Source: Enterovibrio baiacu (GTDB lineage: Bacteria; Pseudomonadota; Gammaproteobacteria; Enterobacterales; Vibrionaceae). From it: a DNA stretch of 64,000 nucleotides. This document shows, piece after piece, positions 36,679 through 54,662 of this stretch. Below the pieces are notes generated by a model. It was given only the letters and a program-made list of their open reading frames with translations, was not told the DNA's origin and searched no databases. Made by a program: the position numbers and the translations under genes. The stretch's first letter is position 1; the number at the start of each line of letters is the position of its first letter. The stretch lies in the NCBI RefSeq assembly GCF_004120195.1, contig NZ_SCHN01000008.1, positions 285,973-349,972 on the forward strand. Direction: 5' to 3'.

Positions 36679-38472
36679 CTACAGTCGAGATGCCAGTGGA
36701 ATGATGGTGACACGATCGCCCACTTCCGCATTGTCCACGTCCGGCGCGACTTCAATTAAGCAATTGGCCTCACTCATTGAACGTAAAATACCTGAACCTT
36801 GTGAGCCCGTTGATCTGACTTCTAGCTGGCCATTGGCGCTGATGCTGTATATACCGCGAGTATATTCAGTGCGTCCGCGGCGCGAGCGAATACGTTCTTG
36901 TGTCATCGCCGATAGCGTTTCAGGCTGCCAATAAACGTCTCCCTGCATTTTTCGTACTGCAGGCTCAACAAATTGTAGGAACGTCACCATCACGGCGACA
37001 GGGTTGCCTGGCAGCCCAAAGAACGGAACATCGCCCAGCTTGCCGAAAGCGAGCGGTCTGCCGGGGCGCATGTTTACGCGCCAAAAATTAATGTCACCCA
37101 GCTGGTCTAACACGGTTTTGATGTAGTCAGCATCGCCCACAGAGACACCACCGGACGAAATCACCATGTCGGCTTGTTCAGTTGCAGCACTGAGCGTGGC
37201 GTGTAATGCCGCTTCGGTGTCTTCAATAATGCCGAAATCGAGGATCTCGCAACCGAGTTTGGTGAGCATGGCGCGTAGCGTGTATCGGTTCGCATCATAA
37301 ATGCAGTGAGATTTTGCGGCAGTGCCTGGCGCTTGTACCTCATCGCCGGTTGAGAACAAGGCTACCTTGATGGGTTTGAACACTTCAGCGCTGTCAAAAC
37401 CGAGCGATGCCATCATCCCGAGTTCCGCTGCGCCAATGCGCTTTCCGGTATGAAAGACCGTCGTGCCTTTTCGAAGGTCTTCACCTGATTGACGGACATT
37501 TTGCCCTGCTCGGATACCGCCTTTGGTCGTGTCGAAAGACACGGTGCCGTTATCGTCGCTTGCTTGTTCGCGCATGATCACCGTATCCGCGCCCTCAGGA
37601 ACGGGTGCGCCCGTCATAATGCGCACGCATTCTCCCGCCGTAAGGGTTTCCGCGTAGTGGTGACCAGCAAACACCTCACCCACGAGGCGATAGCTTTCGC
37701 GCTCAATGTCGTCACTGCGGATGGCATAGCCGTCCATTGCTGAATTGGTCGAAGAGGGCACGTTCACGGGCGCAATGATATCCATTGCCAACACTCGATG
37801 AGGTAATGCGTTCAGATCGCATGTTTCGGTGTGTTCGGACACCGCAATCGCTTCCAGGATTTTTGCTCGGCCGTCGTCCACCGACAACATGGTTGGCGAC
37901 AGTGAATCGCACGTCGCAGTTTGTGCGTGATGGCTTTCGATCCAACGTTGAATAAACGCCACCAAGCTCGCAATGTCATTGATATCTAAACGAGGCAGGG
38001 ATGTTGATGGAAGTTCGGCAGAAGAGGCAGAAGAAGAGGAGTCATCGCTGGCGACCGCCACAATGTTGGGATCATCTGGGTGAAGCCAAGGCTTGTTGAG
38101 TGCTGCGCGATGAAGCTCTATTTTGGGGAAAGCGTTGTGTTTAAAGCCTTCCACTAACACCAAATCCGCGTTGTTCTGATCGAGTTGCCCGAGCAATTGA
38201 TTGAGCGTGCATTCGTGATCGGGGGTTTCTGTCATCAATGCGTGACGATAGCGAGAGCTGATCAACATTTGTGTCGCCCCCGCTTTGCGCAGGCGATAAC
38301 TGTCTTTACCCGGTTGATCGACATCAAAATCATGATGCGCGTGTTTGACCATGGCAATGCGAATGCCTTTTTCGACCAAGGCTGGAATGAGTTTTTCCAG
38401 CAGGGTCGTTTTACCTGTTCCACTAAATGCTGCAAACCCTAACACGGGCAGTGAGCAATGGGTCAGGCTCAT
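36679..38472 (-). CDS. MobB-MoeA fusion, molybdenum/tungsten cofactor biosynthesis
   Basis: 597 aa fusion of two cofactor proteins. Residues 1 to about 175 are MobB: P-loop GFAAFSGTGKTTLLEKL (about 12-28), VKHAHHDFDVDQPGKDS and VLVEGFKHNAFPKIELHR. Residues about 200-597 are MoeA, which inserts Mo or W into molybdopterin: VNVPSSTNSAMDGYA, RIMTGAPVPEGADTVIMRE, SSGGVSVGDADYIK and GLPGNPVAVMVTF. It is the last gene of a minus-strand operon after mobA (4-bp overlap) and tupABC. MobB with MobA would add GMP to make the bis-MGD cofactor used by the formate dehydrogenase encoded nearby. Confidence 0.93.
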   Translation of the reverse strand: MSLTHCSLPVLGFAAFSGTGKTTLLEKLIPALVEKGIRIAMVKHAHHDFDVDQPGKDSYRLRKAGATQMLISSRYRHALMTETPDHECTLNQLLGQLDQNNADLVLVEGFKHNAFPKIELHRAALNKPWLHPDDPNIVAVASDDSSSSASSAELPSTSLPRLDINDIASLVAFIQRWIESHHAQTATCDSLSPTMLSVDDGRAKILEAIAVSEHTETCDLNALPHRVLAMDIIAPVNVPSSTNSAMDGYAIRSDDIERESYRLVGEVFAGHHYAETLTAGECVRIMTGAPVPEGADTVIMREQASDDNGTVSFDTTKGGIRAGQNVRQSGEDLRKGTTVFHTGKRIGAAELGMMASLGFDSAEVFKPIKVALFSTGDEVQAPGTAAKSHCIYDANRYTLRAMLTKLGCEILDFGIIEDTEAALHATLSAATEQADMVISSGGVSVGDADYIKTVLDQLGDINFWRVNMRPGRPLAFGKLGDVPFFGLPGNPVAVMVTFLQFVEPAVRKMQGDVYWQPETLSAMTQERIRSRRGRTEYTRGIYSISANGQLEVRSTGSQGSGILRSMSEANCLIEVAPDVDNAEVGDRVTIIPLASRL

Positions 38473-39053
38473 GACAACTCTCCGTAACGCACCAGCTCGT
38501 CGGGCGTGTTGAGGTTGATGAAGGCATCATGCTCGGCGCTGAAATCCACAAAGACGGTATTGCAGAGGTCGTAGAGCAGGACAATTTTGCGGTCACCGTT
38601 CGCGAGAAACGTGTTCAGTCTTTCGAAAATGCTGCGCTTCATCATGGTCACAACCGGCTGTACCGATTCACCATCATGAGCAACCACGATTTCAGCGTCT
38701 GCGCTGATGGCGTGATACATCTTTTCCAGCAAGGTGTGGGGCAGGTTAGGGCAATCGCAAGGGACGAAGCCAAGCCACTCACTGTCGATGTTCGACATCG
38801 CCGCATGCATGCCGCCTAATGGGCCGGGAAAGCCCTCCAACACATCACCAAAAACCGGGCCGTACTGTTCGTACCTTTCTTGGTTTCGGTTGGCGTTAAT
38901 CGCAATGGTTGCGCCTTGCTCTGTCAGGCGCTCATGGACGAATTCAATAAACGGTTTACCGTTGAGTGTCACAAGCCCTTTGTCTTGGCCGCCCATGCGG
39001 CGTGCTTGTCCGCCGGCAAGAATGACCCACGTAGTTTCAGGATGCGAAGGCAT
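38469..39053 (-). CDS. mobA: Molybdenum cofactor guanylyltransferase
   Basis: 194 aa enzyme that attaches GMP to Mo/W-molybdopterin to form the guanine-dinucleotide cofactor of DMSO-reductase-family enzymes. The N-terminal nucleotide motif is VILAGGQARRMGGQDKGL (about 10-27), and FVPCDCPNLP (about 96-105) holds the metal-binding region. Its start overlaps the end of tupC by 17 bp and its stop overlaps the MobB-MoeA start by 4 bp, so it is tightly embedded in the operon. Confidence 0.95.
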   Translation of the reverse strand: MPSHPETTWVILAGGQARRMGGQDKGLVTLNGKPFIEFVHERLTEQGATIAINANRNQERYEQYGPVFGDVLEGFPGPLGGMHAAMSNIDSEWLGFVPCDCPNLPHTLLEKMYHAISADAEIVVAHDGESVQPVVTMMKRSIFERLNTFLANGDRKIVLLYDLCNTVFVDFSAEHDAFINLNTPDELVRYGELS

Positions 39054-39750
39054 GGTTATCCTTGTTAATGATATTGAGTTTTGGTTTGTGTATGAGGCGT
39101 TGGTTTTCCAGTAACCATTGCTGATTACAGCCGTCGGTGAGCGTGTTTGGGTGGTGGCTGGTCAGCACTAAACTCGCGCCGCGGTCACGCAAATCATCGA
39201 CCATGATTTTTTGTGCGTTGATCGCTTCTACATCGAGGTTAGCGCAGGATTCGTCCATCAACAAAATCGAAGGATTAATCGCCCAAGCACGTGCCATGGC
39301 CACTTTCTGTTTTTCACCGCCAGAGAGCACAGAAATATGCTCGCGACTCAGCGATTCTAGCCCAATCATACGTAATGCCTGCATTGTAAGCTGTCGCTGT
39401 TTTCTTTGACAGACATGCTTTCCTTTCAGGCCATAAGCGATGTTTTCAATCACTGAACCATCGAACAAATACGGCGATTGGTGCATGTAAATCACACCAC
39501 TTTGCCCCGTAAAACCCGCTAAACGTTGTAGCCAAGAGGCGCGAGCAAGGTTGAGAGAACCACTGGAAGGGCGCTGAATACCCGCGAGCACCTTTAGCAG
39601 GGTTGTTTTGCCAATGCCGTTTTGACCTGAGAGGTACACGGCATCACCTGGACACAGCTTCAATGAGGGAATATGAAACAACAAACGGTGTTTGTATTTC
39701 ACTGAGAGATCAACAGCTTCTAAGATTATCTGACTCATATTCTCGCTCAA
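39037..39750 (-). CDS. tupC: Tungstate ABC transporter, ATP-binding subunit
   Basis: 237 aa ABC ATPase. Walker A is GQNGIGKTTLLKVLAG (about 42-57), the signature is LSGGEKQKVAMARA (about 141-154), and Walker B is SILLMDESCANLD. It energises the TupB permease. The tup rather than mod/wtp assignment rests on TupA and TupB, which have the Tup-type layout (single permease, TTTS-type binding protein). One base separates it from tupB. Confidence 0.88.
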   Translation of the reverse strand: MSENMSQIILEAVDLSVKYKHRLLFHIPSLKLCPGDAVYLSGQNGIGKTTLLKVLAGIQRPSSGSLNLARASWLQRLAGFTGQSGVIYMHQSPYLFDGSVIENIAYGLKGKHVCQRKQRQLTMQALRMIGLESLSREHISVLSGGEKQKVAMARAWAINPSILLMDESCANLDVEAINAQKIMVDDLRDRGASLVLTSHHPNTLTDGCNQQWLLENQRLIHKPKLNIINKDNHAFAS

Positions 39751-39751
39751 G

Positions 39752-40450
39752 TTAGGTTCTCAAGTGGCCATTGCCATGGGCAAAGCTAATGAAGAAGTTC
39801 ATGGTGAGTGCCAACAACAGCAACACCATGCCGAGTGCGATGCCTTGCGCGAAGGCACCCTTAGACGTTTCTAGCGCAATCGCGGTAGGAATATTTCGTG
39901 TGTAATACAGGATGTTGCCGCCGACCATCATGGAGCACCCAACCTCTGTGATGATGCGGCTGAATGCAGTGATCACAGCGGCAAGCAAAGGGAAACGGAT
40001 TTCCCACATCAAGGTCATCATGGCGCGAGGAATGGATGCACCGAGCGTATAGGCCGTCTCCCACGCGCGTCGGTCACTGTTTTGGAATGCTGCGTGCATC
40101 ATGGAAATCAAGATCGGGAAGCTGATCAGGATCTGTCCCAATATCATCGCCTTTTGCGTAAACAGCATCTTCCAATCACCCAGCGGGCCGGCGCGAGACA
40201 GCATCATATAAAGCAGTAATCCCACCACCACGGTCGGCACAGATTGAAGCGTATTGACGAGAGACAGCACAAACCATTTGCCCGGCACCTGCCAATACGC
40301 AAGGGCGAAGCTGATGAGAAGAGCTGGAATTAAGACCAGCCCGATAGCGATAAGAGACACTGAAAACGACACACCAACAATGCCCCATAGCGTTGTATCG
40401 CCGCTAAACAGCAGGGAAACCGCTTGTTGGGTGGTGTCGAGTAAGTTCAT
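39752..40450 (-). CDS. tupB: Tungstate ABC transporter, permease
   Basis: 232 aa inner-membrane permease with about five or six hydrophobic helices. The ABC coupling motif is in EVGCSMMVGGNILYYTRNIPTAI (about residues 170-192, EAA-like region ETAYTLGASIPRAMM just before). It overlaps the tupA stop by one base (TAATG) and is 1 bp from tupC. It carries the oxyanion across the membrane. Confidence 0.9.
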   Translation of the reverse strand: MNLLDTTQQAVSLLFSGDTTLWGIVGVSFSVSLIAIGLVLIPALLISFALAYWQVPGKWFVLSLVNTLQSVPTVVVGLLLYMMLSRAGPLGDWKMLFTQKAMILGQILISFPILISMMHAAFQNSDRRAWETAYTLGASIPRAMMTLMWEIRFPLLAAVITAFSRIITEVGCSMMVGGNILYYTRNIPTAIALETSKGAFAQGIALGMVLLLLALTMNFFISFAHGNGHLRT

Positions 40451-41262
40451 TAGCTTGCGTCCGCCACAAAGAGTTGCTGGCCGCTGACCTTGAAGTTATC
40501 AATCAAGTGTTGGGCTTTTTCGTTTACCAGCCAATCGCTGAACTTTTTCGCGCCTTGGTAGTTCAAATCAGGGTAGCGAGTCGGGTTGATCAAGATAACC
40601 TGATAAGGGTTAAACAGACGGTCATCGCCTTCGACTAACACGGCCATGTCGAGTTTGCTTTGGTATGCCAGCCAGGTACCTCTGTCGGTAAGGGCATAAC
40701 CTTGTAATTCATTCGCCATCGTCAGTGTAGGGCCCATTCCTTGGCCCACAGCCTTGTAACCAGAAAATGTCGGTTGTACGCTCGCCGCTTCCCAAAGCAG
40801 TCGTTCTTTTTTGTGGGTGCCAGAATCATCACCACGAGAAATAAACGTCTGATTCATTTCAGCCACCTTGCTCAATGCTTGTGTGACGCTTTTGCTGCCC
40901 TTGATGTTGGCAGGGTCACTCTGTGGGCCAACAAGCACGAAATCGTTGTACATCAGGGCGCGGGGTAACACGCCAAACCCTTTATCGACAAAGGTGGCTT
41001 CGGCGTTTGGTGCGTGGGTCATCACCACATCCACATCGCCATTTTCTCCCATCTTTAGGGCTTTACCTGTCCCTGCTGCTAGGACTTGCACGTCATACCC
41101 CGTGTCTTTTTTAAATTCTGGAAGAAGAAAATCGAGCAACCCTGAATGGTAAGTACTGGTGGTGGTCGCAAGGCGAATCACCTCCGCCGCATTGGCGGTG
41201 AAGCAGATTGAAAGGAGTAAGCCTGTTAGTGCAATGGTTTTGGTTTTTCTTATGATTGTCAT
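40450..41262 (-). CDS. tupA: Tungstate ABC transporter, periplasmic binding protein
   Basis: About 270 aa. The start MTIIRKTKTIAL gives a signal peptide ending near FTANAAEV; an upstream in-frame Met (41289) is disfavoured because it only lengthens the leader. The mature protein begins IRLATTTSTYHSGLLDFLLP, with the TTTS-type oxyanion-binding motif of TupA. GDVDVVMTHAPNAE and ISRGDDSGTHKKE are further family motifs. TupA proteins bind tungstate with high selectivity over molybdate; that property is established for the family and inferred here. A sigma-54-type promoter lies 75 bp upstream. Confidence 0.9.
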   Translation of the reverse strand: MTIIRKTKTIALTGLLLSICFTANAAEVIRLATTTSTYHSGLLDFLLPEFKKDTGYDVQVLAAGTGKALKMGENGDVDVVMTHAPNAEATFVDKGFGVLPRALMYNDFVLVGPQSDPANIKGSKSVTQALSKVAEMNQTFISRGDDSGTHKKERLLWEAASVQPTFSGYKAVGQGMGPTLTMANELQGYALTDRGTWLAYQSKLDMAVLVEGDDRLFNPYQVILINPTRYPDLNYQGAKKFSDWLVNEKAQHLIDNFKVSGQQLFVADAS

Positions 41263-41336
41263 TTGTCTTCCTGACGTTGTTGACGACACTTCTTATCGTT
41301 TGGCAGTGAAAATTAGCCTCTGGTGACCCTAGACTT

Positions 41337-41352
41337 AGCAACAAAAATGCCA
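41337..41352 (-). promoter_or_regulatory. Sigma-54 (-24/-12) promoter of the tup-mob operon
   Basis: On the minus strand TGGCATTTTTGTTGCT: GG and GC dinucleotides with exactly 10 nt between, very close to the consensus TGGCAC-N5-TTGCW. Predicted start near 41326, about 64 nt before tupA. Activator-like sequence lies upstream at 41472-41505. Confidence 0.8.
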
Positions 41353-41471
41353 ACCTTGCTATTTGTGGTGGAATTGCCTTATCGTTATGAAATATAAGAG
41401 GTTAAATGTTCATATGCGGATATTGGTAAGTCATGTTCGTGCATGAAAAAGTGATGCTGCTATCGGACTGA

Positions 41472-41505
41472 GTCAAAATGTCCCATGTATCATATGGGCA
41501 CCTGA
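41472..41505. promoter_or_regulatory. Candidate enhancer (activator-binding) site upstream of tupA
   Basis: GTCAAAATGTCCC (41472-41484) is identical to a 13-mer at 48106-48118 upstream of another sigma-54 promoter. Six bases on, ATGGGCAC begins a weaker inverted copy. The centre lies about 150 bp upstream of the predicted tup start, the usual distance for a sigma-54 activator. It is also 42 bp before the response-regulator gene, which could give autoregulation. Confidence 0.6.
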
Positions 41506-41526
41506 GAGAGGAAAGGCATTCAAGAA

Positions 41527-42909
41527 ATGAAAGATGCATTACAGCAGTTTGGGTTTTCCGCCTTGGTGGTTGATGATGAACCCGGCATGCGCGCGATACT
41601 GAACAAAGCGCTATCGAAAAAGCTCACTCAGGTAGAAACCGCCTCTTCTCTTGAAGAAGCGGAAGCCTTGCGAAAGCGAAACCATTTTGACTTGTTGATT
41701 GTCGACATCAACCTTCCCGGACGCTCTGGCATTGATTGGCATGAAGCCTTTAATGACGATGAGCGCCGAAGCGACATTATCTTCATGACAGGCTATGCTG
41801 AGCTGGAAACCGCTATCAAAGCGCTGCGAGCGGGTGCATCCGATTTTATTCTTAAGCCGTTCAATCTCGAACAAATGCTGCAATCTGTTCAGCGCTGTTT
41901 AGATAAACGCATGATGGAACGACGAAATGTCGCATTGCAACGCGATGTCGCGCGATCTTTCCCTGTCGACATCATTGGCGATGCACCCAAAACGTTGGCG
42001 ATGCGTGAGTTGGTTTCACGCCTTGCCCCATCGCCTGCCGCTGTCTTGATTGAAGGTGAATCTGGCACAGGCAAAGAGTTGGTGGCGCGTGCGTTACATG
42101 CGGTAAGCAGCCGAAGTGGCCCTTTTGTGCCCTTGAACTGTGGGGCGATTGCACCGGAGTTATTGGAAAGCGAGCTCTTTGGTCATGTGGCAGGCGCATT
42201 TACAGGTGCAAGAAAAAGCAAAGATGGCCTGTTCCGCGTGGCTGACAAAGGCACGTTGTTTCTTGATGAAATCGGCGAAATGCCATTGTCGATGCAAGCT
42301 TCGCTCCTTCGAACCTTGGAGCAGAAAACCATTCGTCCTGTTGGGGCTGAGCGCGAAGTGAATGTGGATGTGCGCATTGTGGCCGCCACCAACCGCAACC
42401 TGCATGAAGAAGTTGCAGCAGGGCGTTTTCGCAAAGACTTGTTCTACCGCTTGAATGTCTTGTCGGTAGAGATCCCGCCGCTGAGAGAGCGCGTTGAAGA
42501 CATAGGCCTTTTGCTCAATCACTTCTCCGAGATGCTCGCCAGAGACATGGGAATGAAACCCGTGGTATGGGCAAATGACGAAGTGGCGGCCATGCAACAG
42601 TATGGTTGGCCGGGTAACATTCGAGAGCTCAAAAACACCGTGGAACGCGCGATATTACTCGGCAAACCCGATGTCACGCAGTGGCTTGGTAACGCTGGCG
42701 TGACCGTATCGGTGCATGAGGTTGAGCGTGACGTCGAGGAAGCAGGCGTACAAGAAGACGGTTATCCGTTAGGTTGGCCGTTGAAAGACGTTGAACGTGC
42801 GCACATCGAGCGGGTGGTCGATGCGCATGAAGGGAATAAATCTGCTGCGGCGCGCCAACTGGGTGTGGCGAGAAAGACCTTAGAGCGCAAGTTCAAAGAA
42901 TGGCTGTAA
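41527..42909 (+). CDS. Sigma-54-dependent response regulator (NtrC family)
   Basis: 460 aa enhancer-binding protein. The receiver domain (about 8-125) has acidic pocket VVDDEPG (Asp16-17) and phospho-acceptor Asp60 in LLIVDINLPG. The AAA+ domain has Walker A GESGTGKELVARA (about 178-190), the sigma-54 contact loop GAFTGA (223-228) and LFLDEIGEM. The C-terminal Fis-type HTH is NKSAAARQLGVARKTLERKFKE. The kinase gene follows. Its genomic place between tup-mob and the formate dehydrogenase genes, plus the local -24/-12 promoters, suggests that it controls this island. An orthologous gene sits in the V. cholerae formate dehydrogenase cluster, from memory. Confidence 0.93.
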   Translation: MKDALQQFGFSALVVDDEPGMRAILNKALSKKLTQVETASSLEEAEALRKRNHFDLLIVDINLPGRSGIDWHEAFNDDERRSDIIFMTGYAELETAIKALRAGASDFILKPFNLEQMLQSVQRCLDKRMMERRNVALQRDVARSFPVDIIGDAPKTLAMRELVSRLAPSPAAVLIEGESGTGKELVARALHAVSSRSGPFVPLNCGAIAPELLESELFGHVAGAFTGARKSKDGLFRVADKGTLFLDEIGEMPLSMQASLLRTLEQKTIRPVGAEREVNVDVRIVAATNRNLHEEVAAGRFRKDLFYRLNVLSVEIPPLRERVEDIGLLLNHFSEMLARDMGMKPVVWANDEVAAMQQYGWPGNIRELKNTVERAILLGKPDVTQWLGNAGVTVSVHEVERDVEEAGVQEDGYPLGWPLKDVERAHIERVVDAHEGNKSAAARQLGVARKTLERKFKEWL

Positions 42910-42967
42910 CCATGGTGTGCTTATCCCGCCGCCACGCAAGCACGTGCTTTACATGGGGTGGCTGCGG

Positions 42968-45004
42968 ATGAAGTGGCTAACGAAGTGGCGAACACGATTT
43001 CGTACTGCGGTGCGTTATCGTCTGTTGGCATTAACGTCAGTTCCGATTTTATTGACGCTACTCGTCTTGATAGGGCTCACGTTGTATTGGACGGTGGCGT
43101 ATTCATGGACCAACGCTTTGGCGGGGGTTCGCGCCGATCTTGCGGTGGCGAGCAACAGCATGGAAGTGTTGCAGCGAGAGCAACGTCGCCAACTTCACGC
43201 CATCGCAGATTCCTATGAATTCCAAATGCAAATCCAAACCGACCCTGATGGGCTCACTGCATGGGCGCAATCACGGGCGGGGAAATACGATGTGGATTTT
43301 CTTGCTGTGTATGCAGCGGAAGATATCGATCGCCTGCCGCAAACCTTGCGTCTTCCGTTACTCAGAGGCCAGCAGCGCACCTTCTTCCAAGTCATGTCAG
43401 AAATAGAGTTAGCATCGCTCACCAACGACCTTCCTGCCCGCGCTGAAATTCCGCTTTTGAACGAAAACACCTTTGAAGAACGTGGGCTGATCAGCCGCAG
43501 TTTACTGCCGCTTTTCGATGCCAATGGCGAGCTAGAGTGGATCGTGGATGGCGGTATCTTACTCAATAACAGCACGGTACTGGTGGATAGGATCCGCGAC
43601 CTTGTTTTCCCCGAAGGAAAACTGCCCGATGCAGGTGTGGGCACCGTTACCCTCTTTTTGGACGACGTTCGCGTCAGTACCAATGTGCCGTTAAACAGTG
43701 AGAGCAAATTTGGCCGCGCCATTGGTACGCGCGTGTCGCAAGAAGTGCAGCAAACGGTATTGGTGGAAGGGGAGGAGTGGGTAGACCGCGCCTATGTGTA
43801 TGACGCTTGGTATATTTCGGCATACATGCCAATTCGAGATTTCAACAATAGCGTGATTGGTATGCTTTACACTGGCTATCTCGAATGGCCGTTTATTAGT
43901 CGCTATTTGACCAACATTGTCGAATTGGGCATTGGTGTGTTGCTCACACTCCTTGTGTCCGGGTTATTTGTCTACCGTGGCGCACGGGATCTGTTCCGCC
44001 CGATAGAAAAAATTCACCGAGCTGTACGCCTCGTCCAATTCGAAAAAGACATCAGGATTGGCAAGCTAGGGCTTGACCCTGAGCACGAGCTGGCAAGTTT
44101 GGCGCGTCAGTTCGACAGCATGCTTGACCAGCTAAAGCAGCAAAACGATGCGATTCGCCAAAACGCGTTAGAGCTTGAAGACAAAGTGCGCCAGCGCACG
44201 GCGAGCTTGCATGAACGCACTGAGCAGCTGGGCTACCACATCAAACTGTTAGAGCAGACACGAAACAAACTCTTACTCAATGAAAAACTGGCGGCCTTGG
44301 GTGAGCTAACCGCAGGCATTGCCCACGAAATCAATAACCCAGCGGCGGTGATCCTTGGCAATATCGAGCTCATGGAATATGAACTCGGACAGCATGCCGA
44401 TTTGGTGTCTGAGGAAATGTCGGCAGTCTTAGCGCAAATCGACCGTATTCGAAACATCACGCGCAGCCTGTTGCAATACAGTCGCCAAGGCGGCGTGCAA
44501 GATGAAATCACTTGGCAGCGTGTAAACCCAGTCATAGAAGAAAGCGTCACCTTGGTACGTTCAGGAACCAAGAAACAAGACGTTGAAATCGTGACGGCGT
44601 TGAATGCCAAATGCAGCGTAGAGATTAACCGTCATCAATTGCTGCAAGTCTTGGTTAACCTGCAAATGAATGGCATTCATGCCATGAACGACAAAGGTAA
44701 ACTGACTGTTCGCTCAGACGATTGGATCGACGAGCGCGGCGACACCATCGGCGCAGTTATTGCGGTCGAAGACTTTGGCTGCGGTATCGCGAACGAAAAT
44801 TTGACCAAAGTGTTCGACCCGTTTTTTACCACCAGACGATCAGGAACTGGCTTAGGCTTGTCTGTGACACAAGGTATTGTGAGCGGTTTGGGGGGCGAGA
44901 TTAAGGTTGAGTCAGAAGTGGGGAAAGGCAGTACATTCGTGCTGTATCTCAGAGAGAAAATCCCGTCTGATGATGACATTGCACCATTGAAAATGCTTGA
45001 GTAG
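42968..45004 (+). CDS. Membrane sensor histidine kinase, partner of the sigma-54 regulator
   Basis: About 678 aa. TM1 is near 15-40 (LLALTSVPILLTLLVLIGLTL). A large periplasmic Cache-type sensor region follows to about residue 300, then TM2 (VELGIGVLLTLLVSGLFVY), a HAMP-like stretch and a coiled coil. The HisKA domain has His453 in LTAGIAHEINNPAAV, and the HATPase_c domain has VEDFGCGI, FDPFFTTRRSGTGLGL and GGEIKVESEVGKGSTF. The ATG at 42968 has GGGGTGG upstream; a GTG at 42917 in the same frame would extend it. The periplasmic ligand is unknown; formate or an electron-acceptor-linked signal is only a guess from context. A terminator follows. Confidence 0.92.
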   Translation: MKWLTKWRTRFRTAVRYRLLALTSVPILLTLLVLIGLTLYWTVAYSWTNALAGVRADLAVASNSMEVLQREQRRQLHAIADSYEFQMQIQTDPDGLTAWAQSRAGKYDVDFLAVYAAEDIDRLPQTLRLPLLRGQQRTFFQVMSEIELASLTNDLPARAEIPLLNENTFEERGLISRSLLPLFDANGELEWIVDGGILLNNSTVLVDRIRDLVFPEGKLPDAGVGTVTLFLDDVRVSTNVPLNSESKFGRAIGTRVSQEVQQTVLVEGEEWVDRAYVYDAWYISAYMPIRDFNNSVIGMLYTGYLEWPFISRYLTNIVELGIGVLLTLLVSGLFVYRGARDLFRPIEKIHRAVRLVQFEKDIRIGKLGLDPEHELASLARQFDSMLDQLKQQNDAIRQNALELEDKVRQRTASLHERTEQLGYHIKLLEQTRNKLLLNEKLAALGELTAGIAHEINNPAAVILGNIELMEYELGQHADLVSEEMSAVLAQIDRIRNITRSLLQYSRQGGVQDEITWQRVNPVIEESVTLVRSGTKKQDVEIVTALNAKCSVEINRHQLLQVLVNLQMNGIHAMNDKGKLTVRSDDWIDERGDTIGAVIAVEDFGCGIANENLTKVFDPFFTTRRSGTGLGLSVTQGIVSGLGGEIKVESEVGKGSTFVLYLREKIPSDDDIAPLKMLE

Positions 45005-45020
45005 CGAGTGACGCGTGAAA

Positions 45021-45050
45021 CAAAAAACACGCCATCGTCGGCGTGTTTTT
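45021..45050. terminator. Bidirectional terminator after the kinase gene
   Basis: ACACGCC (45027-45033), loop ATCGTC, GGCGTGT (45040-45046), with A-run and T-run. It separates the kinase gene from the convergent HTH regulator. Confidence 0.92.
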
Positions 45051-45072
45051 TATTGTCTGATATCGTTAAACA

Positions 45073-45972
45073 TCAACTCGCTGACCACATCTGTTTGCCA
45101 GTGTGTTGAAAGTCATAGCCACCAAACAATTCGCTTTGCTGACGGCTTTCTTCATCATCCAGATGGTGAATGACCTGCTGCACCAAGGTGCGGAAATAGA
45201 TGTTTTTCGGGATCACCAGTTCGAACGCTTCGTTGGCGATGGGGAGAAAAGCCAAGCCAAATTCTCCCGCCGCACTTTTACTGCCAAAGCCTATATCAGC
45301 AGAACCTCGAGCAATTGCGGAACCGAGTTCGCGTTCACTCAAGCAAGTGGTGACGGTGTTTAACGTGTCTCGCGTCATGTCGTTGCGAAACAGCCATTCG
45401 TCCATGGCGCGCGCACTGCCTGCGCCATCTTGTCGGCCAGCCCAACGCCACCGTTTGTCGGAAAAATGGTAAGGGTCGTTGAGCTTGTCTGCCTGTTCAG
45501 GCCTTACAATCAAGCCTTGAAGTCGCTCGAAACCGTGGACTAACACCCAATTCTTATGCCCCGAATATTGTTGCAGCAAAGCGGGATGACGAAGTTTTGC
45601 TTCTTCCGCGTTTCCCCAATGAATGGCGCACATATCAACATGGCCTTTTTCAAGCATGGCCAGTCCTTGCTTGGTGCCCGTGGCGGTATACCCCACCAGC
45701 GCAGTGCTGCCGAGTGTAGCGGCCATTTTACTCACGATGTGTTGTAGCAGCGGGTCGTCAGAGCCCGCGATGAGCAACCTGTCGTTGAACACCCCATTAT
45801 GGCTCGATGCTAACAACCAACGGTCGAGTAAGCTTTTCGGGAAAAGCCATTTCCCAGTGACCTTGGTGGCGGGGATCACGCCATCATTGGCAAGGCTATA
45901 GACCTTCTTTTCATTCAGGTCGATGTATTCTGCGACTTGGCGGGCGTTCATGAATTCAGGGAAATCACTCAT
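45073..45972 (-). CDS. HTH plus periplasmic-binding-like regulator of the formate dehydrogenase island
   Basis: About 299 aa, cytoplasmic. The N-terminus carries an excisionase/MerR-type helix-turn-helix (FMNARQVAEYIDLNEKKVYSLANDGVIPATKVTGKW in part, about 7-41). The remainder is a PBP-like domain resembling molybdate/tungstate-binding proteins (LLIAGSDDPLL, GHVDMCAIHWGN, RQDGAGSARAMDEWL, GSADIGFGSKSAA). Proteins of this layout are thought to read a small ligand, plausibly oxyanion or cofactor status. The start MSDFPEFMN is preferred over an upstream Met at 45993, and overlaps fdhD's stop by 8 bp. Exact ligand and target are unknown. Confidence 0.85.
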   Translation of the reverse strand: MSDFPEFMNARQVAEYIDLNEKKVYSLANDGVIPATKVTGKWLFPKSLLDRWLLASSHNGVFNDRLLIAGSDDPLLQHIVSKMAATLGSTALVGYTATGTKQGLAMLEKGHVDMCAIHWGNAEEAKLRHPALLQQYSGHKNWVLVHGFERLQGLIVRPEQADKLNDPYHFSDKRWRWAGRQDGAGSARAMDEWLFRNDMTRDTLNTVTTCLSERELGSAIARGSADIGFGSKSAAGEFGLAFLPIANEAFELVIPKNIYFRTLVQQVIHHLDDEESRQQSELFGGYDFQHTGKQMWSAS

Positions 45973-46795
45973 GCCGCAATCCTTTGATATCAAAGTCGAT
46001 ATTCTCTGCGCCGTTAAACACTTGGAAGCGATGGCCTTTGGCGCGCGCGATCATGGTAATGCCAAGTTGCTTGGCGAGATCAAAGCCCATCTGTGTGACG
46101 CCGGAGCGCGATAGCAGCACTGGAATCCCCATTTGCGCCACCTTGATGACCATTTCAGACGTGAGGCGGCCTGTGGTGTAAAAGATTTTGTCGCCCCCCG
46201 TTTGGCCTTGAAGCCACATTTCTCCGGTTAGCGTATCGACCGCATTGTGACGGCCAATGTCTTCAACAAAAGAGAGAATATCAGTGTCTTTGCAGACCGC
46301 GCAGCCGTGCACCGCCCCTGCCGCTTTGTAGGTGTCATTGTGATGCGTCAGAGATTCAAGCAACCCGTAAAGCGTCGATTGTTTCAGGTGGGGCGTAGGG
46401 AGGACTAAGTCATCAAGTTTCTTCATCACATTGCCGAACATAGTGCCTTGTCCGCAGCCCGACGTGACCGTTTTCTTGGAAAGTGTTTCTTCGATGTCGT
46501 CGTTTTGCTCGTTGGTGACGACAGCCGCTGATTGTGTTTCCCAGTCGATGATGACTGAGTCTAAGGCATTGACGTCATGCAACAAGCCTTGGTTGCGAAG
46601 ATAACCTAACACCAACATGTCAGGCCTCGCGCCGAGCGTCATCAAGGTCACGATTTCTCGCCAGTTCAGATACACAGTGAGTGCGCGCTCGCAGGCAATC
46701 TGTTTTGTCATGGGCTCGCCGTATTCGTCGAACACAGTGACATCAATGGTTTGCGGGATATCAGACTGCGTTTTGATGATTTTTGGTTGGGTCAT
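45965..46795 (-). CDS. fdhD: Formate dehydrogenase accessory sulfurtransferase FdhD
   Basis: 276 aa protein that passes sulfur from cysteine desulfurase to the bis-MGD cofactor, which formate dehydrogenase needs to be active. TSGCGQGTMFGNVM carries the conserved CGxG loop (about 116-129); VHGCAVCKDTDILSFVEDIGRHNAVDTLTG spans about 165-195 in segments and is the family signature. It is the first gene of a minus-strand pair with the HTH-PBP regulator, divergent from the main formate dehydrogenase operon. Confidence 0.95.
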   Translation of the reverse strand: MTQPKIIKTQSDIPQTIDVTVFDEYGEPMTKQIACERALTVYLNWREIVTLMTLGARPDMLVLGYLRNQGLLHDVNALDSVIIDWETQSAAVVTNEQNDDIEETLSKKTVTSGCGQGTMFGNVMKKLDDLVLPTPHLKQSTLYGLLESLTHHNDTYKAAGAVHGCAVCKDTDILSFVEDIGRHNAVDTLTGEMWLQGQTGGDKIFYTTGRLTSEMVIKVAQMGIPVLLSRSGVTQMGFDLAKQLGITMIARAKGHRFQVFNGAENIDFDIKGLRHE

Positions 46796-46923
46796 GTACC
46801 CGCTTCCTTTGCGTTGGGGAATGAAAACAGCGCGCCCTTTTCCAGCCCGCTAGGGAAGCAAAAAGCAAAACCTGTTCCAGCATTTAGCGTTGGCATGACT
46901 TTTTGAATGTGGTGAAGGCGCGC

Positions 46924-46961
46924 TGGTATGTGTTTTGCACCACGCTGGTATGTGTTTTGCA
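46924..46961 (+). promoter_or_regulatory. Tandemly duplicated sigma-54 promoter before the DUF3305 gene
   Basis: TGGTATGTGTTTTGCA occurs twice, at 46924-46939 and 46946-46961, within a 22-bp tandem direct repeat (46921-46942 and 46943-46964) differing at one base near the 3' end. Each copy has GG and GC separated by exactly 10 nt (consensus TGGCAC-N5-TTGCW). Predicted starts are near 46950 and 46972, 67-89 nt before the gene. A degenerate third copy (TGGCATGACTTTTTGA, 46891-46906) lacks the -12 GC. Direction fits the formate dehydrogenase operon. Confidence 0.78.
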
Positions 46962-47038
46962 CAAAGACACCTTGAGGGTCCGCCAAACCCCGCTGCAGCG
47001 CGCGCGTATTTCGCTGCGGAAACACGAAGGAGTGATGT

Positions 47039-47491
47039 GTGAGTGAGATAATTAAAGACCCACAACAATGGTTACTGCAATTCGATTTAGAGACAACGAT
47101 TGTCACGGTTGGCCGCTGGAATACAACGCGCTGGTCGCTGGTAAATTTGCACCTTCCTAAAGACCAAGAAACGCTGTCAGAATCAGCGTATTCGCTGCCT
47201 TTGATGCTGTTTAAAGATGAACGCACTGACTACCGATTTAACCTCAGTTCTCGTGACCCTCACCTGTTTTTCATCTTTGAAGTGGAAGAGGATGAATCGC
47301 TAAAACCTCTGCAGGTCACGGCATCGCAAACCGGGGCGGCGAGCTTTATGGATGGCGACTATCTGGTGCTTTCTGAGCCAATGCCGCTGCCGATCCAAGC
47401 GTGGATGGAAGCCTATATTGGTCGCCATGGTGAGCTGTTGGAAACCCGCAAGAAAAAACGCAAAGGCGCGGGGAGGGCAAGTGGCAACTGA
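47039..47491 (+). CDS. DUF3305 family protein
   Basis: 150 aa, GTG start (GTGAGTGAG, 47039) after AAGGAG, about 8 bp upstream. The domain is recognised from the formate-dehydrogenase neighbourhood and from the sequence pattern VTVGRWNTTRWSLV ... LFKDERTDYRFNLSSRDPHLFFIFEV. DUF3305 genes regularly precede DUF3306 and the Fdh structural genes, so this is probably an accessory assembly or electron-transfer factor, with unknown mechanism. First gene downstream of the sigma-54 tandem promoter, overlapping the next gene by 11 bp. Confidence 0.88.
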   Translation: MSEIIKDPQQWLLQFDLETTIVTVGRWNTTRWSLVNLHLPKDQETLSESAYSLPLMLFKDERTDYRFNLSSRDPHLFFIFEVEEDESLKPLQVTASQTGAASFMDGDYLVLSEPMPLPIQAWMEAYIGRHGELLETRKKKRKGAGRASGN

Positions 47492-48155
47492 TTCTTTTCT
47501 CCAACGCTGGTCAGCGAAAAAACGCGGCGAGTGGATTGATGAAACAGAAGAAATCCGCGAAGACGTCACGCAATCCGACAGCGAGCTTCTCTCCTCAGAG
47601 CCTTCTTTCTCCGATGCCACCGAACATGGCGAAAGCCATGAAGGTGAAGATGCTGATACTTTGCCGCCGCCTGCGACCATGGACGACGTTGAAAACCTTC
47701 AGGAAGGTGATTCAGCCGCCGTGTTTCTGGCGAAAGGCGTGTCATCCGAAGTGAAAAAAGCAGCGCTGCGCAAGCTGTTTCGAAGCGATGCCTACAACGT
47801 GCTGGATGGCATGAATGACTATGACCTCGATTATTCCAACACCGCAAATCTGGCTGCGGAAGTGGCGGCGAATCTGCGTCAGTGGACGAAAGAAAACGTC
47901 GAGAAGATGACTGAGTGTGATGATCAAGCATCCGTGAACGCTGAGGAAGCATCCGCGTCTTCGCCTGATTCAAAAGAACGCCCACATGCAAACGCTGAGG
48001 CGAACGGAAATGAGGGTGAAGAGGAAGGCGAATCTGACCTCGCCTTAGCGAGTGAGACAAAAAGTACCCTAGAGAAAAATAGGGACAATTTGTCGTACGG
48101 CGTGCGTCAAAATGTCCCAACTGAAAGCATGGATAAGAATTCAGACGGATTCTGA
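47481..48155 (+). CDS. DUF3306 family protein
   Basis: 224 aa from the GTG at 47481 (VATDSFLQRWSAKKRG), preceded by GGGAGGG; longer frames upstream lack a ribosome site. The core DUF3306 motif is LRKLFRSDAYNVLDGMNDYDLDYSNTANLAAEV split near residues 95-130. The C-terminal 80 residues are acidic and low complexity (AEANGNEGEEEGESD). It overlaps DUF3305 by 11 bp. A second upstream set of regulator sites lies inside its 3' end. Role in Fdh maturation is inferred only from genomic association. Confidence 0.88.
   Translation: MATDSFLQRWSAKKRGEWIDETEEIREDVTQSDSELLSSEPSFSDATEHGESHEGEDADTLPPPATMDDVENLQEGDSAAVFLAKGVSSEVKKAALRKLFRSDAYNVLDGMNDYDLDYSNTANLAAEVAANLRQWTKENVEKMTECDDQASVNAEEASASSPDSKERPHANAEANGNEGEEEGESDLALASETKSTLEKNRDNLSYGVRQNVPTESMDKNSDGF
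48082..48118. promoter_or_regulatory. Inverted pair of activator-like 13-mers
   Basis: GGGACAATTTGTC (48082-48094) and GTCAAAATGTCCC (48106-48118) form an inverted pair (11 of 13 bases complementary) with centres 24 bp apart. The first also contains an internal palindrome, GACAA-T-TTGTC. The second is identical to 41472-41484 upstream of tupA. They sit 100-125 bp before a -24/-12 element, the geometry of a sigma-54 enhancer. Confidence 0.65.
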
Positions 48156-48187
48156 CTCCGTATTCGTTATTTTTCTTCCCTCACAGC

Positions 48188-48203
48188 TGGTTCAGTACTT
48201 GCT
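48188..48203 (+). promoter_or_regulatory. Sigma-54 promoter before the polyferredoxin gene
   Basis: TGGTTCAGTACTTGCT has TGG, then TTGCT, with the required 10 nt between GG and GC. Predicted start near 48214, leaving a 226-nt leader. Inverted activator-like sites are immediately upstream. Confidence 0.7.
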
Positions 48204-48439
48204 CTATAAAAAGCCACTAGCGACAAGTCATTGTTTAAATTGAATTGCTGTTGAATTTTCCTCTGCGTCACCTGCCAGCCTAGGCCAGCAATACCTAGAT
48301 GAGTGAACGTCGCAACAGCCAATGATGTGATTGAAATAATAGACAAATCAAAAATAGATTGGATGCATAGAACAGCCAGTACAGACCAGCACGCGTGATA
48401 TCGCGGGATGGGTTGAACCAGCTTGGAAAGCAGGTGTTT

Positions 48440-50215
48440 ATGGCTAACGAGACAATGTCGACAGAAAATACAATAACAACAATCAATCAGGTTCTTACAC
48501 AACACACTGATCGCAATGGCGTTGCAAGACAACATGCGTTGCAGAGCACGGTGACGTTGGGAAACCTCATTCCTCCGACGGTGAGCTTCGAAAGTCACGG
48601 TCGTATTCTTGTGGCTGGCGCAGCGACAGCGGTTTTCCGCTTTGCGCAAAAGCTACCACTCTCACTGCATACCAATACCGTGTTGCTCTGTACTGAAGGG
48701 ATTAGCAGTGGCGCGGTGACCCCGCCGGAATTTTCAGTGTTCTACGCCAAAGATATTGCGATTGATGGGTTTCTCGGTGCCTTTGATGTGCAGATTGGCG
48801 AGCGTTTGGCAGCCGATGGAAAGCTTGAGAAAGGCTCGCTTGGTCATGACGCGCAAAACCTTGCTGTTATCACCACAGGGCAACCGCACTTCGATGTGGT
48901 GGTGGATTTGACAGAGCAGGGTATTCATCAGGCTGAATTGCCGCCTTTGGGGTATTACGCTGTTGGGCGAGGTGTGTGCTCAGAAGAGGAGACCATTGAG
49001 GCGCTCCCTGATTTAACGGGAACGTTCGACAAGCCGAAGTTTTTCCGTTTGGACACGGAGAAATGCGCGCATACATCACGGGGGTTGGAAGGGTGTACGC
49101 GCTGTATTGATGCGTGTCCTGCCGATGCGTTAGATATCGTTAAGAGCGCCATCACTATCAACCCGTATTTGTGTCAGGGCATGGGATCGTGCGCCACGGC
49201 GTGTCCGACAGAAGCCATAAGCTATGCATTGCCTGATCCCGACAACACCCAGCATTTTCTCCACCAGCTTTTGACGCACTATCACGCAAAAGAAGGTGTC
49301 GCACCGATCGTGCTTTTCTATGCTGACGACGACATGGCGCCCGCAGGTGAAACGTTATTGGCGAATGCCATCGCACAAATGCCGAGCCGAGTCATTCCTG
49401 TTCGTTTGGAAGAACTTGCATCCGTGGGCATTGATACCTGGTTCTCTGCCTTGGTGTATGGCGCCACGCAGGTGGTGTTAGCTGAATCACCACAACTTCA
49501 TGCGAAAACACGCCGTGTGCTTGTGCAAGAACTGGACATTGCCGCGCGTTTTTTAAAGGCGCTCGGGCTGGAAACGCACCGTATCGCCATGCTTCCCATC
49601 GCTGAATTGGGCTACGCGACCTTGTTCGACAGCGATGTGATGTCATCTGACACGTCGAGCGACAACGCGCCTCGCGCCAAATTAGAAGGCAGCAAACGAG
49701 AAAAACTCTCTAGCGCGCTAGATTTGCTCGCCGCCCACACCGGCATACTGCCCCCCATTGTCGCCGTGCCTGAAAATGCCCCGTATGGTCGCATTGATAT
49801 CGATACATCAGGCTGCACCCTGTGCATGGGGTGTGTCACCGTGTGTCCGACCGATGCATTGAAATCCATTGGCACCACGCCCGGGATGACATTCAGAGAG
49901 CAAGATTGCGTGCAATGTGGCCTCTGTGAACAAAGCTGTCCTGAATCGGTTATCTCGTTAACACCAAGATATAACTGGGACAGTGTATCCCGCCAGCAAC
50001 GCCAAACCCTTCATCAAGAGGAAGCCGCCGAGTGCATCAGCTGCGGCAAGCCTTTCGCCCCCGTTTCCATGGTCAACATGTTGATCGAACGTCTTCGCAA
50101 TCACAGCCATTTCCAAGATGACGCCATTAAACGTTTATCGATGTGCGAAGACTGCCGTGTGCGCGACATGGTCGCCGACATGATTGAAAACCCTGACCAG
50201 CAAATAAAGGCGTAG
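48440..50215 (+). CDS. Multi-cluster 4Fe-4S ferredoxin-type protein of the formate dehydrogenase operon
   Basis: About 591 aa from the ATG at 48440. A GTG at 48395 would lengthen it but has weaker support. Two N-terminal 4Fe-4S motifs (CTRCIDACPADALDI, CQGMGSCATACPTEAI, about 210-275) and two C-terminal ones (CTLCMGCVTVCPTDAL, CVQCGLCEQSCPESVISL, about 475-530) are visible, plus a late Cys-rich ECISCGKPFAPVSMV and SMCEDCRVRDMV. The N-terminus has an FAD/NAD-like glycine pattern RILVAGAATA. It is probably an electron-transfer or assembly partner of FdhAB, cytoplasmic (no Tat signal). The TorD-like gene follows in 9 bp. Confidence 0.9.
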   Translation: MANETMSTENTITTINQVLTQHTDRNGVARQHALQSTVTLGNLIPPTVSFESHGRILVAGAATAVFRFAQKLPLSLHTNTVLLCTEGISSGAVTPPEFSVFYAKDIAIDGFLGAFDVQIGERLAADGKLEKGSLGHDAQNLAVITTGQPHFDVVVDLTEQGIHQAELPPLGYYAVGRGVCSEEETIEALPDLTGTFDKPKFFRLDTEKCAHTSRGLEGCTRCIDACPADALDIVKSAITINPYLCQGMGSCATACPTEAISYALPDPDNTQHFLHQLLTHYHAKEGVAPIVLFYADDDMAPAGETLLANAIAQMPSRVIPVRLEELASVGIDTWFSALVYGATQVVLAESPQLHAKTRRVLVQELDIAARFLKALGLETHRIAMLPIAELGYATLFDSDVMSSDTSSDNAPRAKLEGSKREKLSSALDLLAAHTGILPPIVAVPENAPYGRIDIDTSGCTLCMGCVTVCPTDALKSIGTTPGMTFREQDCVQCGLCEQSCPESVISLTPRYNWDSVSRQQRQTLHQEEAAECISCGKPFAPVSMVNMLIERLRNHSHFQDDAIKRLSMCEDCRVRDMVADMIENPDQQIKA

Positions 50216-50224
50216 GAGGCGAAG

Positions 50225-50839
50225 ATGGCAATGCAAGAGATGATTAATGTCGACGATATCAGCAATGAAGAGAACCAGCTTCGCCACCACATTTACAGCC
50301 TGTTAGCGCATCTGCTGCGACAAGCTCCCGATGAGAGCACCTTGACGTGGCTGGCAACGTTGGAATCTGAGGGGGATGAGCACTCTGCCGGCATGGCTGC
50401 GGCGTGGTCAGTACTGAAATTGAGTGCGAAAACCACGCGACCCGTGCAAGCAGCAGATGAATATCAATTGCTGTTTATTGGCGTAGGGCGTGGAGAAGTG
50501 ATGCCGTTTGGGTCTTGGTACTTAACAGGTTCGCTGATGGAGCTGCCGCTCGTGCTGCTTCGCCAAGATTTACGCCAGCTTGGCTTTGAGCGTCAAGAAG
50601 AAACCAAAGAGCCTGAAGACCACATTGCCGCGTTACTCGAAGTCATGGGTATGTTGGTGGAAGAAGGGGATGAAACGCAACAAGCCGCCTTCTTTAACCG
50701 TCATGTCGCCCCGTGGTTTGAGACGCTTTTTACCGACATTAAACGCGCAGATGCCGCGGTGTTTTATACCGCGGTGGCTGAGCTTGCACAGCAGTTTTTG
50801 ATGATAGAAAAAATACGCTTTACCCAACGCCCTTGGTGA
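50225..50839 (+). CDS. TorD/DmsD-family molybdoenzyme chaperone
   Basis: 204 aa all-helical chaperone that binds Tat signal peptides or assists cofactor loading of molybdoenzymes. A GGAGG box eight bases before the ATG gives strong translation. Family-like features are YQLLFIGVGRGEVMPFGSWYLTG (about 79-101) and DHIAALLEVMGMLVEEGDE. Its place before a Tat-signal gene and the formate dehydrogenase catalytic subunit supports a dedicated role for FdhA. Confidence 0.9.
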   Translation: MAMQEMINVDDISNEENQLRHHIYSLLAHLLRQAPDESTLTWLATLESEGDEHSAGMAAAWSVLKLSAKTTRPVQAADEYQLLFIGVGRGEVMPFGSWYLTGSLMELPLVLLRQDLRQLGFERQEETKEPEDHIAALLEVMGMLVEEGDETQQAAFFNRHVAPWFETLFTDIKRADAAVFYTAVAELAQQFLMIEKIRFTQRPW

Positions 50840-50903
50840 GCAGAACCCGCGAAAACCCAGTGGTCGCTAAGTGTTGGACGAAATAAGAACAAAGGAGCAA
50901 GTC

Positions 50904-51113
50904 ATGTCAGAGAACAAAAAAGAGAGCGCACAACCCAACGAAAAACGGCGCGAGTTCCTCAAAGGATTGGGCGTTGCTGCGGCAGCAAGCGCAGCGGCAT
51001 CTGTGGTCAGTACGTCTGCGCAAGCGGATGTGGAGGTCGTAAGCCCCGAAGAAAAGCCCAAGTCTGGCTATCGTGAAACGCAACATATACGCGATTACTA
51101 CGATTCCCTATAA
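50904..51113 (+). CDS. Small Tat-signal protein of the formate dehydrogenase operon (FdhX-like)
   Basis: 69 aa from the ATG at 50904, with GGAGCAAG just before it. The twin-arginine motif is KRREFLKGLGVAAAASAA (about residues 14-31), followed by a hydrophobic stretch and a short, acidic mature part. Small Tat-signal proteins of this size often precede FdhA in such operons. Their role (assembly or anchoring) is not established. It is probably exported or membrane-retained. Confidence 0.82.
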   Translation: MSENKKESAQPNEKRREFLKGLGVAAAASAAASVVSTSAQADVEVVSPEEKPKSGYRETQHIRDYYDSL

Positions 51114-51137
51114 CCCTGCGATTGATGGAGTTTGACC

Positions 51138-53993: not shown

Positions 53994-54007
53994 TAGGAGA
54001 TCACGTT

Positions 54008-54613: not shown

Positions 54614-54662
54614 TGATTATCGACATGGCAGTGACGTTATGCGTCGCTGTTTAGGAGGAGAT

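Follow-up and report, generated by a model that had tools for sequence, protein, structure and literature searches.

A two-component system predicted to act on sigma-54 promoters of oxyanion uptake, cofactor synthesis and formate dehydrogenase genes in Enterovibrio baiacu and its relatives

We analysed a 64,000-nucleotide stretch of Enterovibrio baiacu contig NZ_SCHN01000008.1 (hereafter the window, with coordinates counted from its first nucleotide), in which a two-component regulatory pair, the candidate activator of its surroundings, lies within a cluster of genes for oxyanion uptake, cofactor synthesis and formate dehydrogenase (fdh). The pair comprises an NtrC-type response regulator (41527–42909, forward strand) and an adjoining membrane histidine kinase (42917–45004, forward). 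Gene identities were assigned from Pfam and NCBIfam profile matches. Divergent from the regulator, on the reverse strand, are genes for a tupA-like oxyanion-binding protein (40450–41289), a tupB-like permease (39752–40450), an ABC transporter ATPase that is tupC by position (39037–39750; PF00005; adjoining tupB in the mapped regions), mobA (38469–39053; TIGR02665 above cut-off) and a mobB-moeA fusion for cofactor synthesis (36679–38472; Pfam and NCBIfam PRK14491 above cut-off). On the far side of the kinase, a gene for a one-component protein with HTH_17 and PBP_like domain matches (45073–45993, reverse) lies behind fdhD (45965–46795, reverse; PF02634). The forward strand then carries DUF3305 (47039–47491; PF11749), DUF3306 (47352–48155; PF11748; the open reading frame as listed overlaps DUF3305 and its true start may be later), a polyferredoxin gene (48395–50215; domain match), a NarJ/TorD-type chaperone gene (50225–50839; PF02613), a gene for a small TAT-signal protein (50871–51113; PF10518, slightly below cut-off), and the catalytic, iron-sulfur and cytochrome subunit genes fdhA (51132–53993; PF00384, PF01568 and PF04879), fdhB (53972–54613; domain match) and fdhC (54501–55706, start as listed; PF01292). 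The tup genes are predicted to encode an oxyanion transporter; the more specific label of tungstate uptake, given in a first-pass annotation of the window, is not established by curated scores, with TupA and TupB matches of 244.6 and 190.9 bits against NCBIfam equivalog cut-offs of 400 and 320 bits.

The regulator combines a receiver domain (PF00072, residues 13–121), a sigma-54 ATPase domain (PF00158) and a Fis-type helix-turn-helix (PF02954), all above cut-off in one protein. Its GAFTGA motif is at residues 223–228 (42193–42210) and its Walker A motif, GESGTGKE, at residue 177; across 76 aligned regulators the Walker A motif is invariant and each GAFTGA column is at least 90% conserved. Judged from these domains and intact motifs, it is an NtrC-family sigma-54 activator of the two-component type, in agreement with the earlier description of a GAFTGA-containing response regulator encoded mid-cluster with its own membrane kinase. 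The kinase has an H-box at residue 467, and its nearest named relative, from Enterovibrio norvegicus DSM 15893, is 96% identical; Aliivibrio fischeri also has an orthologue. As alignment with most orthologues begins only at about residue 14–24, the kinase may in truth start near 42968.

Four sigma-54 promoters were located in the cluster, belonging to the tup-mob-moeA operon (41335–41353, reverse; 16.5 bits), fdhD (46862–46880, reverse; 12.1 bits), DUF3305/DUF3306 (46923–46963, forward; tandemly duplicated, best copy 5.1 bits) and the polyferredoxin-fdhABC operon (48187–48205, forward; 7.9 bits). They were scored with a matrix of 14 V. parahaemolyticus sites from which the cluster's own three V. 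parahaemolyticus promoters had been left out. The first-pass annotation had proposed three of these promoters from -24/-12 elements at 41337–41352 (reverse), 46924–46939/46946–46961 (as a pair) and 48188–48203. All are present at these coordinates and conserved across species, but the divergent fdhD promoter had been overlooked, and the pair, although both elements exist, is a 22-bp tandem duplication of one element (46921–46962), found only in the window and in locus L006 among 11 aligned Enterovibrio/Grimontia sequences. Within the window, -24/-12 matches with up to two mismatches show no excess over shuffles (44 versus 50.95 expected); with window counts at chance level, we accept the promoters as real because of their conservation across species.

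That conservation was measured in orthologous regions from 80 loci, obtained by a kinase search of named genomes (region counts include the window). A GG-N10-GC core with a TTGC -12 element, the mark of a sigma-54 promoter, is conserved between species. In 79 of 80 regions the tup promoter keeps this core and scores more than 10 bits (the miss being L022; letter shuffles gave 2.0). The corresponding counts are, for a DUF3305 promoter above 8 bits with an intact core, 46 of 49 (shuffles, 1.8), and for an fdhD promoter on the opposite strand, again above 8 bits with an intact core, 45 of 49 (shuffles, 1.7). The polyferredoxin promoter was judged by score, and 41 of 45 regions exceed 7 bits (shuffles, 2.45). 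The tup genes are divergent from the regulator-kinase genes in 79 of 80 loci, the exception being the fragment L031. Two further candidates were rejected. One would drive the regulator's own gene, but on the other strand of the tup region a sigma-54 element exceeds 8 bits in only 1 of 80 regions. The second is a match at 45017–45035 (reverse; 14.0 bits), which lies between the converging kinase and HTH_17/PBP_like genes at what appears by eye to be a terminator hairpin.

Upstream of the tup and polyferredoxin promoters stands a 15-bp palindrome, GGGACA-WWW-TGTCCC, the predicted regulator site. One copy lies between tup and the regulator gene (41470–41484; GAGTCAAAATGTCCC), 131 bp upstream of the tup -24 element. 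Three precede the polyferredoxin promoter: a distal copy with three mismatches (48054–48068; GAGACAAAAAGTACC; -133), a middle copy (48082–48096; GGGACAATTTGTCGT; -105) and a proximal copy (48104–48118; GCGTCAAAATGTCCC; -83). These sites account for a 13-mer previously reported 100–150 bp upstream of two promoters. Its exact copies (41472–41484 and 48106–48118) and near complement (48082–48094) are there, and two promoters are indeed concerned, but the unit is the 15-bp palindrome and the sites start 83, 105 and 133 bp before the polyferredoxin -24 element and 131 bp before that of tup. The exact 13-mer occurs only twice in the 5.37 Mb genome, both times here, with three further copies at one mismatch; at up to three mismatches it is not in excess in the window (20 versus 20.75 expected).

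Allowing up to two mismatches, the palindrome is found for tup in 71 of 80 regions and for polyferredoxin in 40 of 45, while the best of 59 other half-site permutations reach 8 tup, 4 polyferredoxin and 3 DUF3305/fdhD regions. Sites with no more than one mismatch number 81 across about 1.6 Mb of loci together with the window, and 73 of them lie inside, or within 20 bp of, the tup, polyferredoxin or DUF3305-fdhD regions. Spacing is also conserved: among polyferredoxin promoters a site (up to three mismatches) is placed at -82 to -84 in 36 of 41 and at -85 in three more; the window itself has its site at -83, and L068, the last of the 41, has sites at -107 and -74. A palindrome-like match at 49977–49991 was discarded for want of an A/T centre. 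One-mismatch palindromes also occur inside mobB-moeA of five loci (L061:3513, L083:3509, L018:3729, L022:3884 and L025:2632).

We surveyed 150 Vibrionaceae genomes for the kinase and polyferredoxin genes and for exact matches to a degenerate form of the site, GRGACAWWWTGTCYC. The polyferredoxin gene was found in 116 genomes and the kinase in 113; both occur in 112, neither in 33, fdh without the kinase in four and the kinase without fdh in one. The last of these, G086, was discarded as a case of a kinase without fdh, as its contig ends next to DUF3306. The exact degenerate site is present in 67 genomes, against 15 for the same pattern read backward. Of the genomes with the kinase 63 of 113 have the site, and of those lacking the kinase 4 of 37 (Fisher p 9e-7). 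In the 40 regions inspected, which hold 44 of the at least 75 exact degenerate sites, 35 sites are at tup or polyferredoxin promoters, and in several genomes these two loci are tens of kilobases apart.

The four Vibrionaceae genomes with fdh and without the kinase (G011, G030, G121 and G127) retain tup-mob-moeA, fdhD, DUF3305/DUF3306 and the fdh genes, with tup directly behind fdhD. Their best regulator matches by E-value are only 38–39% identical, versus 71% in a true orthologue. None of the three promoter regions in these genomes contains the palindrome with up to three mismatches, nor an intact GG-N10-GC core element above -3.8 bits. Matches chosen by score only reach 9.6 bits on the DUF3305 side, 8.0 bits on the fdhD side and 11.9 bits on the polyferredoxin side, and none has both GG and GC correctly spaced; the fdhD element of G030, for instance, ends in TTGAC rather than TTGCT. 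Score by itself was discarded as a separator of these genomes, as some of the imperfect elements exceed thresholds used elsewhere. Sites and intact promoters are gone where the pair is absent, which therefore indicates the regulator as the activator. The simplest reading of these sequences is that the promoters decayed after the activator was lost, and the tup promoter may have been removed by the deletion itself. Because the kinase occurs in other families and the trees place G011 away from the pairless Vibrio genomes, the pair was likely lost at least twice, the trees accommodating either two or three losses.

Published data support sigma-54 control of the same genes. In V. parahaemolyticus, deletion of rpoN lowers VP1501 (log2 change -1.45), VP1508 (-1.84) and VP1510–VP1515 (-3.17 to -4.75), and VP1501, VP1508 and VP1510 are marked as V. 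cholerae RpoN chromatin immunoprecipitation (ChIP) peaks (PMC9817140). The VP1501 and VP1508 sigma-54 sites printed in that report are identical to those in the tup and DUF3305 regions of V. diabolicus (L065), and the VP1510 site differs at one position. The RpoN-dependent fdh cluster VP1510–VP1515 and that of V. cholerae are among the closest known systems. The accessible part of the same report describes no activator, enhancer, signal or fdhD promoter, and calls VP1501 and VP1508 "hypothetical protein" (PMC9817140). In V. cholerae, VC1510–VC1518 and VC1523–VC1524 are jointly raised, with VC1519–VC1522 not in that listing as excerpted (PMC5816637). From gene order we take VC1523–VC1524 to be tupAB, in which case tup and fdh genes change together in this species. 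In the excerpts available, the regulator VC1522 appears in an expression list, and VP1502/VP1503 appear with expression changes and a STRING-based link to VP1498/VP1499. Separately, an AphA ChIP peak is recorded between VC1522 and the divergent VC1523 (PMC6855506, in part), hinting at quorum-sensing input. Our literature search, which left most subscription journals outside its range, returned no paper giving the pair experimentally assigned targets, a site or a signal.

Taken together, these data suggest that the 41527–45004 pair is a dedicated two-component activator of four sigma-54 promoters, with formate as the likeliest signal; we put the probability of this reading at roughly 0.8. A periplasmic signal, most likely formate, would be sensed by the kinase's sCache_3_3 domain, and we infer that the phosphorylated regulator binds the 15-bp palindromes and, with sigma-54 RNA polymerase, fires the promoters of tupABC-mobA-mobB/moeA, fdhD, DUF3305-DUF3306 and polyferredoxin-chaperone-fdhABC. 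The enzyme would then rise in concert with metal uptake and with the synthesis and sulfuration of the cofactor. The DUF3305 and fdhD promoters would probably be served by the site cluster at 48054–48118, about 1.1–1.25 kb away. The first-pass annotation's proposal of one signal switching on metal, cofactor and enzyme together is thus backed by promoter and palindrome conservation, by kinase-fdh co-occurrence, by the pairless genomes and by the available delta-rpoN data. It is refined in that the site is the palindrome and not the 13-mer, a fourth promoter belongs to the set, DUF3305 and fdhD lack a local site, and formate is the likely signal.

Several observations weigh against this reading. 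The orthologous regions come from related species, so the counts above are not independent. The exact degenerate site is lacking from 50 of 113 kinase-positive genomes, including the window's own, and the palindrome with up to two mismatches from 9 of 80 tup regions and from all 49 DUF3305/fdhD regions. Nine of the 44 inspected sites lie elsewhere; these were rejected as regulon members and treated as chance, as within 260 bp no sigma-54 element exceeds 10 bits for eight of them, and the ninth has an imperfect element (11.3 bits). A looser palindrome search of the E. baiacu genome showed no enrichment (90 matches versus 129 for the reversed control), and for this reason we claim no further regulon member there. 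Outside Vibrionaceae, 4 of 20 regions (L157, L159, L161 and L165) lack the palindrome with up to two mismatches between tup and the regulator. The TupA and TupB scores fall short of their cut-offs, and the match between the kinase sensor and formate sensors is weak (E 0.0018), with other Cache sensors equal in fold. Purified RpoN gave no electrophoretic mobility shift with the VP1510 promoter, and the authors considered the effect indirect (PMC9817140, accessible part).

The kinase sensor is an sCache_3_3 domain (PF17202) in 38 of 38 sequences and is the sole PF17202 match in its own genome. A structural model of the sensor (mean pLDDT 85) retrieved many Cache domains in a Foldseek search, including the formate-bound 8py0 and 8py1 and LuxQ. 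In a sequence-profile search among solved structures, only 8py1 (E 0.0018) and 8py0 (E 0.042) were credible, and both were crystallised with formate. An sCache_3_3 chemoreceptor domain binds formate, and a ligand could be assigned for most sCache3_3 domains of a gut survey (PMC12415202, as excerpted). The formate-contacting residues of PacF are R142, T145 and T158 (PMC12501870, as excerpted). The kinase sensor has invariant R-x-x-T and R-A-x-G-T motifs, the former, with the spacing of PacF R142/T145, a candidate counterpart of those two residues; the two invariant arginines are R223 and R238 of the fragment that begins at 43004. As the sensor's only credible solved sequence relatives are formate-bound, formate is the likeliest single candidate for the kinase signal, at about even odds. 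Formate-binding sCache/Cache_3 chemoreceptors (8py0 and 8py1, the weak sequence matches, and PacF, Atu0526 and McpF) belong to the same sensor superfamily, but feed chemotaxis, whereas here the domain feeds a histidine kinase for gene expression. A different signal for the same regulon is somewhat less probable but a serious contender: a metal oxyanion (for example via TupA, as LuxP acts for LuxQ), another carboxylate or redox state. Wherever a mapped region contains both genes, tupA and the regulator are divergent, the LuxQ periplasmic domains match the sensor fold as well as the formate sensors do (TMt ~0.57), and the pocket arginine of Atu0526 is common to the sensors CitA and DcuS; the two formate-bound relatives and the chemoreceptor precedent speak for formate instead.

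The absence of the palindrome from the DUF3305/fdhD regions raises an alternative in which the regulator drives only tup and polyferredoxin-fdh, with the DUF3305 and fdhD promoters under another activator. In the window, the DUF3305 intergenic region has no palindrome with up to three mismatches and an A/T centre. In eight Vibrio loci (L040, L042, L043, L055, L065–L067 and L070) a three-mismatch palindrome lies 41–47 bp downstream of where the DUF3305 -24 element starts, a position at which a protein on the DNA might hinder or assist transcription. We regard a separate activator as unlikely: in the four pairless genomes no intact core at either promoter scores above zero, VP1508 is lower in the delta-rpoN strain and carries the V. 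cholerae RpoN ChIP mark (PMC9817140, accessible part), and a site stands at DUF3305 itself in another family group.

That group emerged from a search of the whole order, in which kinase orthologues were found in 52 of 295 genomes, 7 of 100 genera and four family groups. Of the 33 kinase-positive genomes outside Vibrionaceae we inspected 20, from three family groups, including two that we guess to be Aeromonas-like (f2) and Shewanella-like (f6). The divergent arrangement of tup and regulator holds in all 20 regions. A tup sigma-54 element scores above 14 bits in 17 (the exceptions being L154, L163 and L165), and in 16 the palindrome (up to two mismatches) stands between the two genes. The polyferredoxin gene was present in 15 of 15 such genomes searched. 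Four Aeromonas-like genomes have both divergent promoters in the DUF3305/fdhD region and no palindrome there; as in Photobacterium, their polyferredoxin promoter sites are at -115 and -83. In the Shewanella-like genomes a palindrome stands 65–67 bp before the DUF3305 element in 11 of 11 (nine with up to two mismatches, two with three), and their polyferredoxin promoters have none except for one three-mismatch match without an A/T centre. The core is intact at DUF3305 in 11 of 11, at polyferredoxin in 5 of 11 and at fdhD (elements above 8 bits) in 5 of 11.

Because the site is found at polyferredoxin in some genomes and at DUF3305 in others, we propose a shared enhancer, a single element that may serve several promoters. 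In genomes that show no second promoter, read-through from the first is as likely as a shared enhancer. The fuller picture would be a formate-sensing system whose regulon spans four family groups. A single enhancer cluster would act on sigma-54 promoters to both sides over more than 1 kb and would have moved between the polyferredoxin and DUF3305 promoters by lineage, with DUF3305 sigma-54 dependent throughout and polyferredoxin in about half of the Shewanella-like genomes. This picture is tentative, and we judge it less probable than its negation, the more so because the Shewanella-like polyferredoxin core is intact in only 5 of 11 genomes.

The palindromes could instead belong to another regulator, such as the HTH_17/PBP_like protein or a metal repressor. 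This protein is encoded inside the cluster and has a second domain of the periplasmic-binding-protein type. It was, however, undetected in most mapped Vibrio loci, which keep the palindromes; moreover, the palindrome tracks kinase presence and precedes a sigma-54 element by about 83 bp, a usual place for enhancers, so that we consider this explanation improbable. As an observation in its own right, the protein is present in Enterovibrio, Grimontia and Photobacterium, as well as in part of the other families, and is possibly a second, oxyanion-sensing regulator. That the motifs are short degenerate strings chosen by eye, as window counts no higher than in shuffles would allow, is refuted by the conservation counts, the permuted half-sites and the pairless genomes, leaving chance a negligible prospect.

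An RpoN-dependent fdh cluster in V. cholerae was reportedly described by Dong and Mekalanos in 2012, as relayed in PMC9817140. That sigma-54 controls fdh in Vibrio was thus known before; the present analysis adds the candidate activator, its predicted site, the fdhD promoter, the site exchange and the likely ligand. The E. coli FhlA regulon likewise places formate dehydrogenase and maturation genes under formate-linked sigma-54 control. FhlA is a one-component cytoplasmic formate sensor with an N-terminal sensing region and no receiver domain, unlike the membrane kinase and receiver-domain regulator predicted here; the receiver at residues 13–121 rules out a regulator of the FhlA type. In Methylorubrum extorquens, the moeA1-mobB-tupBCA cluster similarly links metal transport to moeA/mobB for a tungsten formate dehydrogenase, and no such two-component or sigma-54 control is described for it in the accessible part of the report (PMC13197769).

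Our analysis proposes what the pair does, where it binds, which genes it targets and which ligand could be tested, for a pair otherwise printed only in expression, binding-peak and predicted-network listings (VC1522; VP1502/VP1503). As an electron donor, formate is widely exchanged between bacteria. The pairless genomes show the fate of promoters once their presumed activator is missing, and the apparent exchange of the site between two promoters would offer a natural test, in genomes, of the reach and direction of sigma-54 enhancers.

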